Positions 57,455-63,715 of a stretch of DNA of 64,000 nucleotides are shown here, in pieces. The notes beneath the pieces were generated by a model that was given only the letters and a program-made list of their open reading frames with translations, did no database searches and was not told the DNA's origin. Positions within the stretch are counted from its first letter, which is position 1; each line of letters opens with the position of its first letter. The position numbers and the translations under genes are program-made. Origin of the DNA: Nitrospirota bacterium (lineage in GTDB: Bacteria > Nitrospirota > JACRHJ01); NCBI GenBank assembly GCA_016212105.1, contig JACRHJ010000034.1:1-64000 (forward strand), given 5' to 3'.

Positions 57455-57638
57455 CAATCCGCTCGCGGCTGTGTTATAAAGACTTGACGATGCGGGCGCG
57501 ATTAATCGCGCCCATACGATTTTAGATACAGGCGGATTCTTCGCACAGCCTGCCCCATAATGCAACCCGGCGCGCCGAGGGCGTCGCGCCCTACAAATGA
57601 CAAGCAGATTATCACCCATACACAGGAGGCATTATAAA

Positions 57639-59291
57639 ATGGCAAAGGTAAAGAGGGCGCTCATAAGCGTCTCGGACAAGACGGGCGTAATAGATTTCGC
57701 CAGTAAGCTCGCGAAGATGGGCGTCGAGATACTCTCGACAGGCGGCACCGCCAAGGCGATGCGCGACGCGAAGGTCGCCGTCAAGGACGTGTCCGAGTTC
57801 ACCGGATTCCCGGAGATGCTCGACGGCCGGGTAAAGACGCTGCACCCCAAGGTGCACGGCGGGCTGCTGGGCCGCCGCGGCGACAAGTCGCACGTCGCCC
57901 AGATGAAGGAGCACGGCATCGAGGCCATAGACATGGTCGTCGTCAACCTCTACCCGTTCGAGGCGACGATAAAGAAGGACGGCTGCGGCTTCGAGGACGC
58001 CATCGAGAACATAGACATCGGCGGCCCGGCGATGATACGCTCCGCCTCCAAGAACTTCATGGACGTGGTCGTCATCGTGGACCCGGCGGACTACGACGCC
58101 GTGGCGAAGGAATTGAAGGACGGCGCGGTATCGCCCAGGACCCGCTTCCGTCTCGCGGCGAAGGCATACGAGCACACAGCGAAGTACGACACGATGATAT
58201 CGTCATTCTTCAAGGCCGCGGGCGCGATAGATACCGAGTACCCGTTCTTCCACAAGTCGGAGATGAAGACGACCAAGTCACGCCCGTACCCGGAGGCCGT
58301 GCCCGCGCACTTCTCGGAGCAGGGCAAGGCGGACAGCCCGTTCCCGATATTCACCTCGCTGCCGCTCATCAAGGTGCAGGACCTCCGCTACGGGGAGAAC
58401 CCGCACCAGAGGGGCGCGTTCTACAGGGAGCCGGTCGTCACCGAGCCGTCCGTCGTCACGTCATGCCAGCTCCAGGGCAAGGCGATGTCGTTCAACAACT
58501 ACCTTGACGCGAACTCGGCCCTCGAACTCGCCAAGGAGTTCACCGAGCCGGTCTCGGTCATCATAAAGCACAACAACCCCTGCGGCGTGGCGACGGCGGA
58601 CAGGATTGTGGACGCATATGTACGTGCGAGGGAGATCGACCCGGTCTCCGCCTTCGGCGGCGTCCTCGCGTTCAACCGCAAGGTGGACGCGGCTACCGCG
58701 AAGGAGATAACCTCCACGTTCGTCGAGGTCGTCATCGCCCCGGGCTTCGACAGGAAGGCGCTTGAGCTGTTCAAGAAGAAGGACAACATACGCCTCCTCG
58801 ACATCGGCTCTGCGATGCACGGTACGGCGTCCGGCTTCGACATGAAGCGCGTCGTCGGCGGCATGATAATTCAGGAGCGCGACCTCGGCATGATTGGCGA
58901 CATCAAAAAGCTCAAGGTGGTGACCAAGCGCAAGCCGACGGCGGAGGAGTACAAGGGCCTCGCCTTCGCATGGAAGGTGGCGAAGCACGTCAAGTCGAAC
59001 GCGATAATCTACTCATACGGGACGCACGTCATAGGCATCGGCGCGGGCCAGATGTCCCGCGTGGACAGCACCCGCCTCGGCGCATTGAAGTCCAACTTCC
59101 CGACCAAGGGCGCATGCCTCGCGTCCGACGCCTTCTTCCCCTTCCGGGACGGCATAGACGAGTGCGCGAAGCACGGCGTCACGGCGATAATCGAGCCGGG
59201 CGGCTCGCTCAAGGACCCGGAGGTCATCGCCGCCGCGAACGAGTACGGCATAGCGATGGTGTTCACCGGGATGAGGCATTTCAGGCACTAA
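57639..59291 (+). CDS. purH: Bifunctional AICAR formyltransferase/IMP cyclohydrolase
   Basis: ALISVSDKTG, STGGTAKAM, GRVKTLHPKVHGGLLGRR, IKHNNPCGVA. Confidence 0.97.
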   Translation: MAKVKRALISVSDKTGVIDFASKLAKMGVEILSTGGTAKAMRDAKVAVKDVSEFTGFPEMLDGRVKTLHPKVHGGLLGRRGDKSHVAQMKEHGIEAIDMVVVNLYPFEATIKKDGCGFEDAIENIDIGGPAMIRSASKNFMDVVVIVDPADYDAVAKELKDGAVSPRTRFRLAAKAYEHTAKYDTMISSFFKAAGAIDTEYPFFHKSEMKTTKSRPYPEAVPAHFSEQGKADSPFPIFTSLPLIKVQDLRYGENPHQRGAFYREPVVTEPSVVTSCQLQGKAMSFNNYLDANSALELAKEFTEPVSVIIKHNNPCGVATADRIVDAYVRAREIDPVSAFGGVLAFNRKVDAATAKEITSTFVEVVIAPGFDRKALELFKKKDNIRLLDIGSAMHGTASGFDMKRVVGGMIIQERDLGMIGDIKKLKVVTKRKPTAEEYKGLAFAWKVAKHVKSNAIIYSYGTHVIGIGAGQMSRVDSTRLGALKSNFPTKGACLASDAFFPFRDGIDECAKHGVTAIIEPGGSLKDPEVIAAANEYGIAMVFTGMRHFRH

Positions 59292-59363
59292 AAGCCGAGA
59301 GGCAAAGTCCCGCCTTTTTGTAAAAAAGGCGGCCCAAAAACTTCTGTGCGGGAAACATCAAAG

Positions 59364-59990
59364 ATGAAAATATTCATTGCCGTGTTGCTGCTCTTGTGCC
59401 TTGCCATCCCCGCATACGCGGAGGACGAGGGCGTCGACGCCAGAGGAGATATTGTATCGTCGTCGCACTACGACATCGACGGAGACGGCGAGCTGGAGAG
59501 GGTGGACATATACCTCGCGTCCGGAAGGCGGTACGTGGACGATACGGACTGGTGCGGCAAGGGCGAGAAGTGGGAGGGCGAGTTCCATGTCCGCATCACG
59601 GACAACAAGAAGCTCCTCCGCGACAACCCGGAACCGCTCCATGTCGAGTTCTTCTGGCTGCCTGCCTTCGAACTGAGGTTCGCGGACTACAACTCCGACG
59701 GCAACGTTGACTTCAACGTAACCGGGTATTCCGGCTGCAACCTCCGCGAGGTCTACCTCTACACGATATACCCCGGCGGCAGGGTCGAGCGGCTCGATGT
59801 CGACGGCGACATACTTGCGTCCACGTCAGAGAGCTCGACCGGCATCGTCAACGCGCTTGGGGACGGCTGCCTGACCACCCAGCACACCGACGATGAGCAG
59901 GGCGTGGTGCAGGAGACCTGGTGCTGGAACAGCAGCATGTTCTTCCTGAAGGACACGATACTCGTCGGCGGGGAAGAGGGAGTGGAGTAG
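59364..59990 (+). CDS. Secreted protein of unknown function
   Basis: Signal peptide MKIFIAVLLLLCLAIPAYAED; VCBS-like YDIDGDGELERVDIYLASGRR. Confidence 0.55.
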   Translation: MKIFIAVLLLLCLAIPAYAEDEGVDARGDIVSSSHYDIDGDGELERVDIYLASGRRYVDDTDWCGKGEKWEGEFHVRITDNKKLLRDNPEPLHVEFFWLPAFELRFADYNSDGNVDFNVTGYSGCNLREVYLYTIYPGGRVERLDVDGDILASTSESSTGIVNALGDGCLTTQHTDDEQGVVQETWCWNSSMFFLKDTILVGGEEGVE

Positions 59991-59999
59991 GCACTGGGC

Positions 60000-60647
60000 A
60001 TGAAAACCGGCGGGCGATACGACACGTCAGGCCTTGCCGAGGCCCGGTCCGAGCCGGGCTCCCGTGGACGCGTGCTCAGGAACAGGCTCGGCATTACCCG
60101 CAAGCGGGAGATGGACGCGGCGGAATACAATGCGTATAACGCCGCTATCGTTTCCCTGTTGAAGTCGTATGGGCCGGAGCACCGCTTCACTGCATCTGAC
60201 ATCCAGAAGATGCACCGCCTATGGCTGGGTGGCATCTACGAATGGTCGGGCGAGTACCGGCAGGTGAACGTGAGCAAGGGCGGCTTCTTCTTTGCCGCCT
60301 CAGGGCAGATACCGCTGCTCATGGCCGAGTTCGAGAAGGGGCCGCTGAGTCGGCATACGCCGTGCGCGTTCAAGGACATGCCGAGGGTCATCGAGGCGCT
60401 GGCCGAGGTACATGTCGAGCTTCTGTTGATCCATCCGTTCCGGGAAGGCAACGGACGGCTTGCGAGGCTGCTCTCAGTTTTGATGGGAACTCAGGCGGGT
60501 TTGCCGCTCTTGGACTTCTCATGCATAAGAGGGAAAAAGAAGGAAGAATACTTCGCAGCCGTGCGGGTAGGGCTGGACAGGGATTACAAACCGATGGAGA
60601 GGATATTTGAGCTTGTGATAGACACGGCGCTCAAGGCTTCTTGCTGA
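60000..60647 (+). CDS. Fic/DOC family protein
   Basis: Fic motif HPFREGNGRLAR; HRLWLGGIYEWSGEYRQVNVSKGGF. Confidence 0.92.
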   Translation: MKTGGRYDTSGLAEARSEPGSRGRVLRNRLGITRKREMDAAEYNAYNAAIVSLLKSYGPEHRFTASDIQKMHRLWLGGIYEWSGEYRQVNVSKGGFFFAASGQIPLLMAEFEKGPLSRHTPCAFKDMPRVIEALAEVHVELLLIHPFREGNGRLARLLSVLMGTQAGLPLLDFSCIRGKKKEEYFAAVRVGLDRDYKPMERIFELVIDTALKASC

Positions 60648-60810
60648 CGGTTGCCAACCTGGTTGCCGGTTTCGCGGGTGCGGCGGTTGCCTGGCGGACG
60701 TGTATACCCTCTATGGCGAACGAGGATACTGCGTGCCTGGTGATAGCCTCTTGCAGCGCCTTGGGGTCTTTGAGGTACGGGTTGGTTTCGATAAGGCTCT
60801 TCTTTTTCAT
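60631..60810 (-). CDS. Small protein with Fic-inhibitory-helix-like motif
   Basis: MKKKSLIETNPYLKDPKALQEAITRHAVSSFAIEGIHVR; SFAIEG fits [ST]xxxE[GN]; convergent with fic. Confidence 0.55.
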   Translation of the reverse strand: MKKKSLIETNPYLKDPKALQEAITRHAVSSFAIEGIHVRQATAAPAKPATRLATVSKKP

Positions 60811-60863
60811 GGAAATATGATAGCATGGGGGGGCCTTGAAGTAAAGGGGGATGTGGGGGGGCG

Positions 60864-61215
60864 TTTGAGGTCGCAAATTGCGACCGCAAAACACGTAACA
60901 CATTGATTATCAAGGGTTGTTTGAGATCACAAATTGTGACCTCAATTGCCAATTATTTCAATGGGTTGCGAGCTTGAGGTCGCAATTTGCGACTTCATGT
61001 TTGTAACTTGTTGATTTTGCAGGGCTGTATGAGGTTGCAATTTGTGACCTCAAACTCCTAATCATCTTGATGGGTTATGGACTTGAGATCACAGATTGTG
61101 ATTTCAAGTTGGCAATATACAGCTTTTCAGGGGATTTGCGGTTGCAAATTGTGACCGCAAATCTATTGCCATATCAGATAGTTACGTGTTTGTGGTCACA
61201 AATTGTGACCGCAAA
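60864..61215 (+). repeat. Array of seven palindromes upstream of ORF6N gene
   Basis: Centres at about 60877, 60933, 60986, 61041, 61095, 61148 and 61202 (spacing 53-56 bp); core [tn]TNNCAA[at]TTGNGA. Confidence 0.92.
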
Positions 61216-61234
61216 TTACGGTTGCGGAGGCTAA

Positions 61235-61750
61235 ATGGAGTCCAGCGTTATACCAGCGGAGCGAATCGAACATTCGATATATGCTATACGAGGTAAGCGA
61301 GTCATGTTGGATTCCGACTTGGCAGAGGTATACAACGTATCTACGAAGGTACTCAACCAGCAGGTTAAACGAAACCTTGACCGTTTTCCTGAAGACTTCA
61401 TGTTTCAGTTGAACCGGGAAGAGTTCAACCGTTTGCAGTCGCAAATTGCGACCGCAAGTTTGACCAAGCGACGCACCGCTCCCTACGTCTTCACCGAGCA
61501 CGGCGCGGTCATGCTCGCGAGTGTCTTGAACAGCCCGGTCGCGGTAGATGCGAGCGTGCAGGTCGTGCGCGCGTTCGTGAAGCTCCGGCAGTTGCTCGCG
61601 TCGCATGCGGACCTTGTGCGGAAGATTCACGCGCTTGAGAAGAAGTACGACTCGCAGTTCTCGGCCGTCTTCAAGGCGATTAACGAACTGATGGAGCCGG
61701 TAGAGAAGGGCAAGAAGAAGGTGGTTGGGTTTCGGGCTGGGGGGAAGTGA
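61235..61750 (+). CDS. ORF6N domain DNA-binding protein
   Basis: VMLDSDLAEVYNVSTKVLNQQVKRNLDRFPEDFMFQLNREEFNRLQSQIATA...PYVFTEHGAVMLASVLNS. Confidence 0.9.
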   Translation: MESSVIPAERIEHSIYAIRGKRVMLDSDLAEVYNVSTKVLNQQVKRNLDRFPEDFMFQLNREEFNRLQSQIATASLTKRRTAPYVFTEHGAVMLASVLNSPVAVDASVQVVRAFVKLRQLLASHADLVRKIHALEKKYDSQFSAVFKAINELMEPVEKGKKKVVGFRAGGK

Positions 61751-61772
61751 GCGGGCGAGGACGTAAAGGGGG

Positions 61773-62423
61773 ATGCACATGTCGGACTTAATTAACCAGG
61801 AAGATGTAAAGTTAAGTATTTTGCGAGGAATCGCAGATGCCCATCAGGACTATTTGCACCTGTCTGGTGGCGAATGGCTCGAGTGGGCTCCTGAATATTT
61901 TATTACAACAAGTATCGCACGCTCGGTAAAGAGGTCTATTCCATTAGATATATTTCTTGAAAACAATACTCGTGAAGCAGCTCAAGACTCTGGCGCACAT
62001 GGAAAAGGCCGTCTATCTAAATTAATAAGGCCTGAAGGGCGCATAGATATACTTATATATGGTTTACCGGACTCTGAAGAAAATATATATCCCAAAGTGG
62101 TCATTGAAGTTAAGCACAGAGTTTATTCATTTGAAAAAATTAGACCTGATTTGGAAAGAATAAAGGGATTGCTTCGTCGCGATAAAACAGACAACACAAC
62201 AATGCAGTTTGGAGCGCTGGCTTTTTATATTTCAAGAAATGATGGAGAGAGAGGGAAAAGTGATAATAGGATTAGAACAATATTGGACAAAATCGAAACC
62301 GAGTCAATAAAGTTCTTCGGTGAATCATGTCATGTCGAGCTAAGCTATAATCTATATGTAGAGGTGAAAGATGCCTGGACGGCGGCGTGTATTATGATCA
62401 TACCGAAGGAAACTAGCGTATAA
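61773..62423 (+). CDS. Putative PD-(D/E)xK nuclease-like protein
   Basis: GRIDILIYG...PKVVIEVKHRV (D...ExK) in an AT-rich ORF. Confidence 0.5.
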   Translation: MHMSDLINQEDVKLSILRGIADAHQDYLHLSGGEWLEWAPEYFITTSIARSVKRSIPLDIFLENNTREAAQDSGAHGKGRLSKLIRPEGRIDILIYGLPDSEENIYPKVVIEVKHRVYSFEKIRPDLERIKGLLRRDKTDNTTMQFGALAFYISRNDGERGKSDNRIRTILDKIETESIKFFGESCHVELSYNLYVEVKDAWTAACIMIIPKETSV

Positions 62424-62443
62424 CACCTTCACGGAGGAAATAA

Positions 62444-63715
62444 ATGAAAGTCCTGGTAGTCGGCGGCGGAGGCCGCGAACACGCCCTGGTCTGGAAGCTC
62501 ACGCAGAGCAAGAAGGTCAGGAAGATATTCTGCGCGCCCGGCAACGCGGGCATCGGCAAGATGGCCGAGTGCGTCAACATCAAGGCGGACAAGGTCGAGG
62601 AACTCCTGAACTTCGCCCGGTTCGAGGGCATCGACCTGACAGTCGTCGGCCCGGAGGCCCCGCTCACGCTCGGCATCGTGGACCTCTTCGAGAAAGAGGG
62701 CAAGCGCGTATTCGGCGTCAGCAAGGCTGCGGCCCAGTTAGAGGGCTCCAAGGTCTTCGCCAAGGAGCTGATGCGCCGGTACAACATCCCGTCGGCCGAG
62801 TACAAGGTCTTCTTCTCGCCCATAGAGGCGGAGAAGTACGTCCGGATGAAGGGCGCGCCGATAATCATCAAGGCGGACGGGCTCGCCGCCGGCAAGGGCG
62901 TCTTCGTCTGCACCACGGTCGAGGAGGCGGTCGAGGCGCTCGACATAATCATGCGGAAGCGGGCGTTCGGCGCGGCCGGCGACCGTGTCGTGATAGAGGA
63001 ATGCCTCATCGGCGAGGAGGCCTCGTTCATGGCCTTCTCGGACGGCGAGACGGTCGTGCCTATGGCGTCCTCGCAGGACCACAAGCGCGTCTTCGACAAC
63101 GACAAGGGGCCGAACACCGGCGGCATGGGCGCGTACTCGCCCGCCCCGGTCGTGACACCGGAGATGGAGGAGCGCATCATGCGCGAGGTCATGCTCCCGA
63201 CGGTGCGCGGCATGAAGCAGGAGCGGATGCCGTACAAGGGCGTCCTGTATGCGGGCATCATGATGACGGAGTCCGGCCCCAAGGTGCTGGAGTTCAACGT
63301 CAGGTTCGGCGACCCGGAGGCCCAGCCGATACTGATGCGGCTCGACAGCGACATACTCGACATAATGCTCGCGGTCTCGGACGGGACGCTGAAGCCCGAG
63401 ATGGTGCGCTGGAAGAACGACGCGTCGGTCTGCATAGTCGCTGCGGCGAAGGGCTACCCCGGTTCATACGAGAAGGGCTTCCCAATCACCGGGCTGGAGG
63501 AGGCGGCCGCGATGGAGAACACGTTCGTCTTCCATGCAGGGACGGCCGACAGGAAGGACGCGGTCGTGACCAACGGCGGACGCGTCCTCGGCGTCACGGC
63601 CATAGGCCAGGACGTCGCCGAGGCCATCAGCCGCGCGTACGCCGCGATAACGAAGATACACTTCGACGGGATGCATTACAGGAAGGACATCGGGGCAAGG
63701 GCGTTGAAGAGGTAG
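62444..63715 (+). CDS. purD: Phosphoribosylamine-glycine ligase
   Basis: MKVLVVGGGGREHALVWKL, GPEAPL, IKADGLAAGKGV, EFNVRFGDPEAQ. Confidence 0.97.
   Translation: MKVLVVGGGGREHALVWKLTQSKKVRKIFCAPGNAGIGKMAECVNIKADKVEELLNFARFEGIDLTVVGPEAPLTLGIVDLFEKEGKRVFGVSKAAAQLEGSKVFAKELMRRYNIPSAEYKVFFSPIEAEKYVRMKGAPIIIKADGLAAGKGVFVCTTVEEAVEALDIIMRKRAFGAAGDRVVIEECLIGEEASFMAFSDGETVVPMASSQDHKRVFDNDKGPNTGGMGAYSPAPVVTPEMEERIMREVMLPTVRGMKQERMPYKGVLYAGIMMTESGPKVLEFNVRFGDPEAQPILMRLDSDILDIMLAVSDGTLKPEMVRWKNDASVCIVAAAKGYPGSYEKGFPITGLEEAAAMENTFVFHAGTADRKDAVVTNGGRVLGVTAIGQDVAEAISRAYAAITKIHFDGMHYRKDIGARALKR

Follow-up and report, generated by a model that had tools for sequence, protein, structure and literature searches.

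The ORF6N gene and its palindromes

Eight copies of one 25-nt palindrome are present in the window (the whole 64-kb stretch of Nitrospirota DNA analysed), seven located 5′ of an ORF6N gene and one inside it (Table 1). The gene is the only ORF6N gene in the 3.05-Mb genome, and its product was assigned to PF10543 with a score of 122 bits against a cut-off of 27.8. Besides the ORF6N gene, whose product is PADLOC PDC-S05, the interval between purH and purD (window positions 57597-63715) encodes a Fic protein (PADLOC PDC-S04), a small secreted protein and a protein with a weak match to Tin (2e-10); together they are a candidate small defence cluster in a housekeeping locus. No ParA was found within ~4 kb of the gene (purH, Fic, an unnamed gene at 61773-62423 and purD) by ORF listing, Pfam or tblastn, and a ParB/parS partition system, with its adjacent ParA-type ATPase and cluster of centromere-like sites, was rejected as a description of the locus.

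Table 1. Positions of the ORF6N gene and of the eight palindromes in the window
Feature	Position	Strand	Remarks
ORF6N gene, 171 aa	61235..61750	+	PF10543 E 1.1e-35; AF2 model
Upstream palindrome 1	60865..60889		G-type
Upstream palindrome 2	60921..60945		A-type
Upstream palindrome 3	60974..60998		G-type
Upstream palindrome 4	61029..61053		one half G-type, one half A-type
Upstream palindrome 5	61083..61107		A-type
Upstream palindrome 6	61136..61160		one half G-type, one half A-type
Upstream palindrome 7, TTGTGGTCACAAATTGTGACCGCAA	61190..61214		centre at -33 from ATG; offset 4 is A, as predicted from Q42
In-gene palindrome, TTGCAGTCGCAAATTGCGACCGCAA	61433..61457		encodes LQSQIATA, residues 67-74; offset 4 is G

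The seven upstream palindromes spaced 53-56 bp apart and the eighth in the gene had been described in the initial annotation, and all were recovered at the positions given there except the sixth, which starts at 61136 and had been placed at 61135; the peptides quoted for the copies had been read correctly. Start-to-start distances are 56, 53, 55, 54, 53 and 54 bp, followed by 243 bp to the in-gene copy. A search of the 3.05-Mb genome with the pattern GGTYRCAAWTTGYGACC, allowing up to two mismatches, returned this locus and a single 2-mismatch match elsewhere, and the reversed control of the pattern returned one match; the pattern search and its control exclude chance as the source of the eight-copy set. 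In the whole window there are 11 palindromes of the CA...TG type, of which eight are this set.

With 10.5 bp to the turn, the array spacing amounts to 5.05-5.33 helical turns. A similar spacing of 53-56 bp recurs at two other loci (L034 and L036), but arrays elsewhere are spaced by ~34 bp, so that the five-turn phasing noted initially is not general. A repeating unit of ~54 bp with a shared spacer block had likewise been proposed; the similarity between spacers is weak, reaching 76% identity over 51 nt in only one pair of units. A CAGGG element shared by the spacers of the window and L034 arrays was out of phase and judged to be chance, and no promoter-like site was found on the plus strand of the window array. 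A 28-nt direct repeat (79%) ending in GTAAAGGGGGATG flanks the array and the ORF6N gene at 60826-60853 and 61748-61775 and is possibly a recombination or insertion scar.

The AF2 model of the ORF6N protein (pLDDT 87.8) contains helices at residues 37-46, 101-137 and 140-153. Residues 37-46, carrying K38, V39 and Q42, are the predicted recognition helix, and the long C-terminal helices of the model could dimerise. A fold search of the PDB with the model gave no match at E ≤ 0.001, and the best PDB sequence match had an E-value of 0.64; placement of the recognition helix therefore rests on the AF2 model and on the covariation described below.

The in-gene palindrome across the ORF6N family

To sample the family, 80 ORF6N loci were collected by means of peptide patterns lacking the motif, together with two viral loci, and further loci were obtained by Pfam search of the Nitrospirota, the phylum of the window, and of the phylum of a Cytophagales genome (G025). 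Loci fetched by a palindrome pattern were then removed and the numbers recomputed, leaving an unbiased set of 153 unique ORF6N genes. A 25-bp dyad, TTGAGGTCGCAAWTTGCGACCTCAA and its relatives, was located at the motif codons almost everywhere in the collected loci. In the unbiased set 125 of the 153 genes (82%) carry a palindrome within the ORF, scored as at least 10 of 11 pairs over offsets 2-12, compared with 0.9% when these same proteins were synonymously recoded. Many bacterial phyla contain ORF6N genes with the palindrome in the ORF, some of them with further copies shortly upstream. Upstream arrays are a minority feature; that the in-gene copy characterises the whole family had been missed initially. 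Some ORFs contain two or three in-frame tandem palindromes 39 or 45 bp apart (L109, with up to three copies, L135 and L032), some of which differ in half-site class. Few ORF6N-like genes were found in phages, mostly distant ones, and a Brevibacillus antirepressor contained no such palindrome.

The palindrome is not tied to one reading frame. Across the full set its centre is positioned in codon frame 0 in 142 genes and in frame 1 in 19, and in one subfamily (L013, L014, L034, L045, L049, L067 and L076) it is read one frame over, giving EVVANCDHLKK instead of LRSQIATS. AF2 models of one frame-0 and one frame-1 protein agree in the succession of helices and strands at the palindrome site. The two arms also change together. 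Pairing was found at offset 4 in 170 of 178 sites, with 60 expected for independent arms (A-T 69, G-C 62, C-G 37), and at offset 10 in 176 of 178, with 103 expected; it extends to offset 13 (85% versus 36% expected) and shows no excess at offset 1. The presence of the same palindrome in two frames, together with the covariation of its arms, indicates a constraint on the nucleic acid. The codon-like pattern of variation noted initially among the window copies is accounted for by dyad symmetry, the same covariation being found when the palindrome is read in another frame, and the nearly identical peptides on the two strands, which had been called odd, simply follow from a palindrome.

The sites are also confined to ORF6N loci. 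A blind fetch with a strict pattern covered 42 genomes with an ORF6N locus and a 396-genome sample of the phylum. Among the 61 strict-pattern palindromes examined, 52 were inside the ORF6N domain, seven within 800 bp of it and two elsewhere; the reversed control pattern had no match in the genomes searched with the strict pattern. Among 61 relatives the strict pattern was present in 14 of the 35 genomes with ORF6N and in none of the 26 without it, and a broader pattern gave a few matches in ORF6N-free genomes, at a level similar to that of control matches. The only two strict-pattern palindromes away from ORF6N genes (L147:896 and L152:1508) are possible trans targets; one is situated between an ABC gene and an apparent DUF1016-type nuclease gene, and the other ~360 bp upstream of an apparent Fic gene. 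Relatives without ORF6N (G044-G046; L206, L207 and L208) have one worn palindrome just after purH, of varying half-site class. Lost genes may thus leave sites behind, and these worn palindromes at the purH-purD junction may be such relics or may be target sites.

Correspondence between helix residues and palindrome bases

Among alignment columns outside the motif, residues 42 and 39 ranked first in mutual information with the base at offset 4. Both are located in the model helix 37-46, 25-30 residues before the motif. Gln42 was accompanied by A at offset 4 in 61 of 67 cases, Glu42 by G in 56 of 62, and Arg42 or Lys42 by C at all 32 paired sites, with a single Leu42 accompanied by T. Residue 39 followed the same base, Arg39 with G, Val39 or Ala39 with A, and Asn39 or His39 with C. 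Lys38 was found with G at offset 7 in 112 of 112 cases, and at offset 5 Arg42 was found with G and Lys42 with T. Gln-A, Glu-C and Arg/Lys-G are familiar preferences in protein-DNA readout, and the ORF6N code, read on the opposite strand where needed, is this same set.

In the unbiased set the residue-42 code at offset 4 was followed at 128 of 133 sites, and the five misses were all Gln42 with G. In the joint table of all genes, G occurs with Arg39/Gln42 in four genes and with Val39/Gln42 in the window gene only. A phylogenetic test was made with independent pairs on a tree built without the helix and the motif. For Glu42 or Gln42 against G or A, 7.9 of 10 pairs (~8) changed in the same direction and none in the opposite (p ~0.008), and for Arg39 against Val39 or Ala39 the numbers were 8.4 and 0. 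Lys or Arg against Gln or Glu agreed in 4 of 4 pairs, too few for a test.

Thirteen plasmid ORF6N genes fetched after the code was fixed served as a held-out set. Eleven carried an in-gene palindrome, the two without one being L215 and L217, and the predicted base was found at offset 4 in 9 of 9 symmetric sites, while each of the two asymmetric sites agreed with the code on one half. In a Parabacteroides plasmid (L219), three tandem ORF6N paralogs have two specificities, predicted as well as observed, and all fit the offset-4 code. Helix residue 42 also covaries with motif residues 69 and 72 (Q with S..V, E with S..A, K with F..G). The agreement between palindrome bases and the predicted recognition-helix residues strongly suggests that the protein reads the dyad. 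Across the family the site is that specified by the predicted DNA-reading residues of its own protein, with the in-gene site of the window excepted at offset 4.

Upstream copies are less orderly. A recognisable copy within 500 nt was found upstream of 24 of 169 ORF6N genes; most genes have none. The positions of these copies are concentrated between -16 and -33, next to the ribosome-binding site. A simple rule that each obeys the code of the gene that follows was rejected, since 45 of 88 half-sites conformed over the 24 loci, 31 of 48 when the nearest copy was taken, and 8 of 14 in the window. Owing to this poor match, it is not claimed that all upstream copies function as operators. Clear relics of lost paralogs are found among them (L194, L118 and L112); at L194 an array with 34-bp spacing and mixed half-site classes begins inside a truncated ORF6N remnant.

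The window protein, with Val39 and Gln42, should read A but has a G-type site in its own gene, and it is the sole exception among Val39/Gln42 proteins; upstream copies 2, 5 and 7 do carry the predicted A. At the same purH-purD junction the nearest relative (G043) has a 70%-identical ORF6N protein with Arg39/Glu42, whose gene has a G-type site and lacks an array. Three readings of the mismatch are considered. The locus may have been caught in the middle of a specificity switch, the new sites being those of the array; the protein may tolerate both purines; or the array may be made of relics.

Proposed autoregulation, alternatives and known systems

From these sequence comparisons it is probable that the dyad is bound by the ORF6N protein, which thereby controls its own gene from an operator within the coding sequence, supplemented at this locus by the upstream copies. 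Autoregulation, dimer formation and the sign of regulation are points that we infer. An assumed ORF6N dimer would present two copies of helix 37-46 to two GTnnCA half-sites; Lys38 would recognise the offset-7 G, and residues 39 and 42 the base pairs of offsets 4 and 5, so that the predicted binding sites would be TTGAGGTCACAAATTGTGACCTCAA-type dyads. One operator would be kept ~70 codons into the protein's own ORF, ~210 bp downstream of the start, and the signature LRSQ[IF][AV]TS would then be the translation of the site. Some loci, the window included, have extra copies 5′ of the gene, often beside the ribosome-binding site at 16-33 nt from the start codon. Transcription of the gene would be blocked by its bound product, which would form a roadblock on the in-gene dyad and occlude initiation from proximal upstream sites. 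The outcome would be a negative feedback that the ORF takes along on every transfer; with the operator inside the ORF, feedback would stay intact behind a foreign promoter, which would suit a gene of patchy distribution. Several results argue against this reading: one helix per half-site should not need symmetry reaching to offset 13; most genes lack an upstream copy; the upstream copies follow the code poorly, some being relics; the in-gene site of the window is an exception; the window array showed no plus-strand promoter-like site; and no PDB fold matched with confidence. The initial proposal that the palindromes are operators for the ORF6N protein is strongly supported as regards recognition of the site by the protein (by the code, the independent pairs, the unbiased set and the held-out genes).

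An alternative is that the palindrome acts in the mRNA, as a hairpin with an 11-bp stem and a 3-nt loop that controls translation or stability. Pairing kept at all of offsets 2-13 with offset 1 free is what a stem with a triloop would give, and mismatches in the upstream copies of the window lean to G-U. Mismatches between in-ORF arms across genes are not biased in this direction, however (19 GU and 33 AC), unlike those expected of a sense-strand stem, the helix residues predict the bases by a classical DNA-readout code, and copies also occur as scattered non-coding sites, so that a hairpin is unlikely. The palindrome could instead be a selfish repeat resembling the Rickettsial palindromic elements or PARCELs, living in ORF6N genes and producing the arrays as it spreads. 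Such an element would fit the occurrence of as many as three copies within a single ORF (L109), the varied frames and positions, the upstream arrays, and the lone palindromes that persist between purH and purD in relatives lacking ORF6N. It is nevertheless a quite improbable explanation: the dispersal in unrelated genes that marks those elements was not seen, 59 of the 61 genome-wide copies lying in ORF6N genes or within 800 bp of one with two exceptions, the strict pattern was absent from the 26 related genomes without ORF6N, and a free element would not track the helix residues of its host protein.

The initial annotation had also offered the upstream copies as silent cassettes, donors for gene conversion of the coding motif. 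Copy 1, the closest to the in-gene copy, matches it at 23 of 25 bases, and at L036 an unusual TCT centre is common to upstream and in-gene copies. Such a system would have donors partly identical and in a usable frame; no upstream copy is identical, and because the 53-56 bp spacing is not throughout a multiple of 3 the array units share no reading frame. Most ORF6N genes have no upstream copy to serve as donor, and the motif varies with the helix of the protein itself and not with the upstream stock, making this proposal, which did not survive the analysis, very unlikely. As for conservation of LRSQ[IF][AV]TS for the fold, with codons palindromic by chance, the motif is indeed a conserved stretch of the family alignment, as had been stated initially. 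Chance codon palindromy is excluded by the synonymous null of only 0.9% and by the second reading frame, in which a subfamily encodes EVVANCDHL from the same DNA palindrome, with frame-0 and frame-1 models keeping the same architecture there; such an explanation is scarcely credible.

The operator reading can be extended, tentatively and with some doubt. Each ORF6N protein might recognise only DNA bearing its own in-ORF site, controlling itself and incoming genes of the same specificity in the manner of phage immunity groups; coupled drift of helix and motif might leave graveyards of old sites as arrays; and part of the apparent coevolution of residue 42 with residues 69 and 72 might be carried through the DNA. 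Covariation of residue 42 and the motif through DNA would be a trap for coevolution-based contact prediction. With operator and reader in one ORF, the family would be a natural record of change in DNA-binding specificity, and mixed-site loci such as the window may be intermediates in it. The analysis provides a lead into the widespread and uncharacterised ORF6N family (the PADLOC defence candidate) in the form of a predicted site, its reading residues and the offset-4 code, and it suggests that what is conserved as a protein signature can in fact be an operator in the DNA and not a feature of the protein.

No description linking ORF6N to this palindrome was found in the literature searched, and to our knowledge no regulator family has been described whose signature motif is its own operator, conserved across phyla and in more than one reading frame. 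In E. coli, lac O2 and gal OI are operators in transcribed coding regions of the regulated genes and not of the regulator's own gene. The likeness is a protein site in a transcribed coding region, where control by roadblock or looping is possible; the ORF6N site differs in being located in the regulator's own ORF (~82% of genes), in fixing a conserved motif and in changing in step with the specificity residues. ParB/Spo0J and parS resemble the ORF6N system in having a palindromic site and a specificity set by few helix residues. One B. subtilis parS is inside spo0J. That statement was not found in PMC7614844. Preferences of ParB and Noc have been changed by a few helix residues (PMC7383237). 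Unlike ParB, the window ORF6N has no ParA partner and no origin-wide sites, its sites being confined to the gene's own locus.

Each ingredient has some precedent: operators within genes, switches of specificity (PMC7383237), and coding sequence bound by its own product (PMC11789052). Palindromic DNA in coding sequence that has spread horizontally is also represented by Rickettsial palindromic elements and by PARCELs (PMC2996958), but these are found in many unrelated ORFs, whereas the ORF6N palindrome is found in one family and matches the reading helix of the protein. RGG motifs encoded by RNA G-quadruplexes are a case in which the coding sequence itself binds its product (PMC11789052), as proposed here. 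That case concerns RNA and a low-complexity effect of the genetic code, whereas the ORF6N palindrome would be a sequence-specific double-stranded DNA dyad with a residue-base code.
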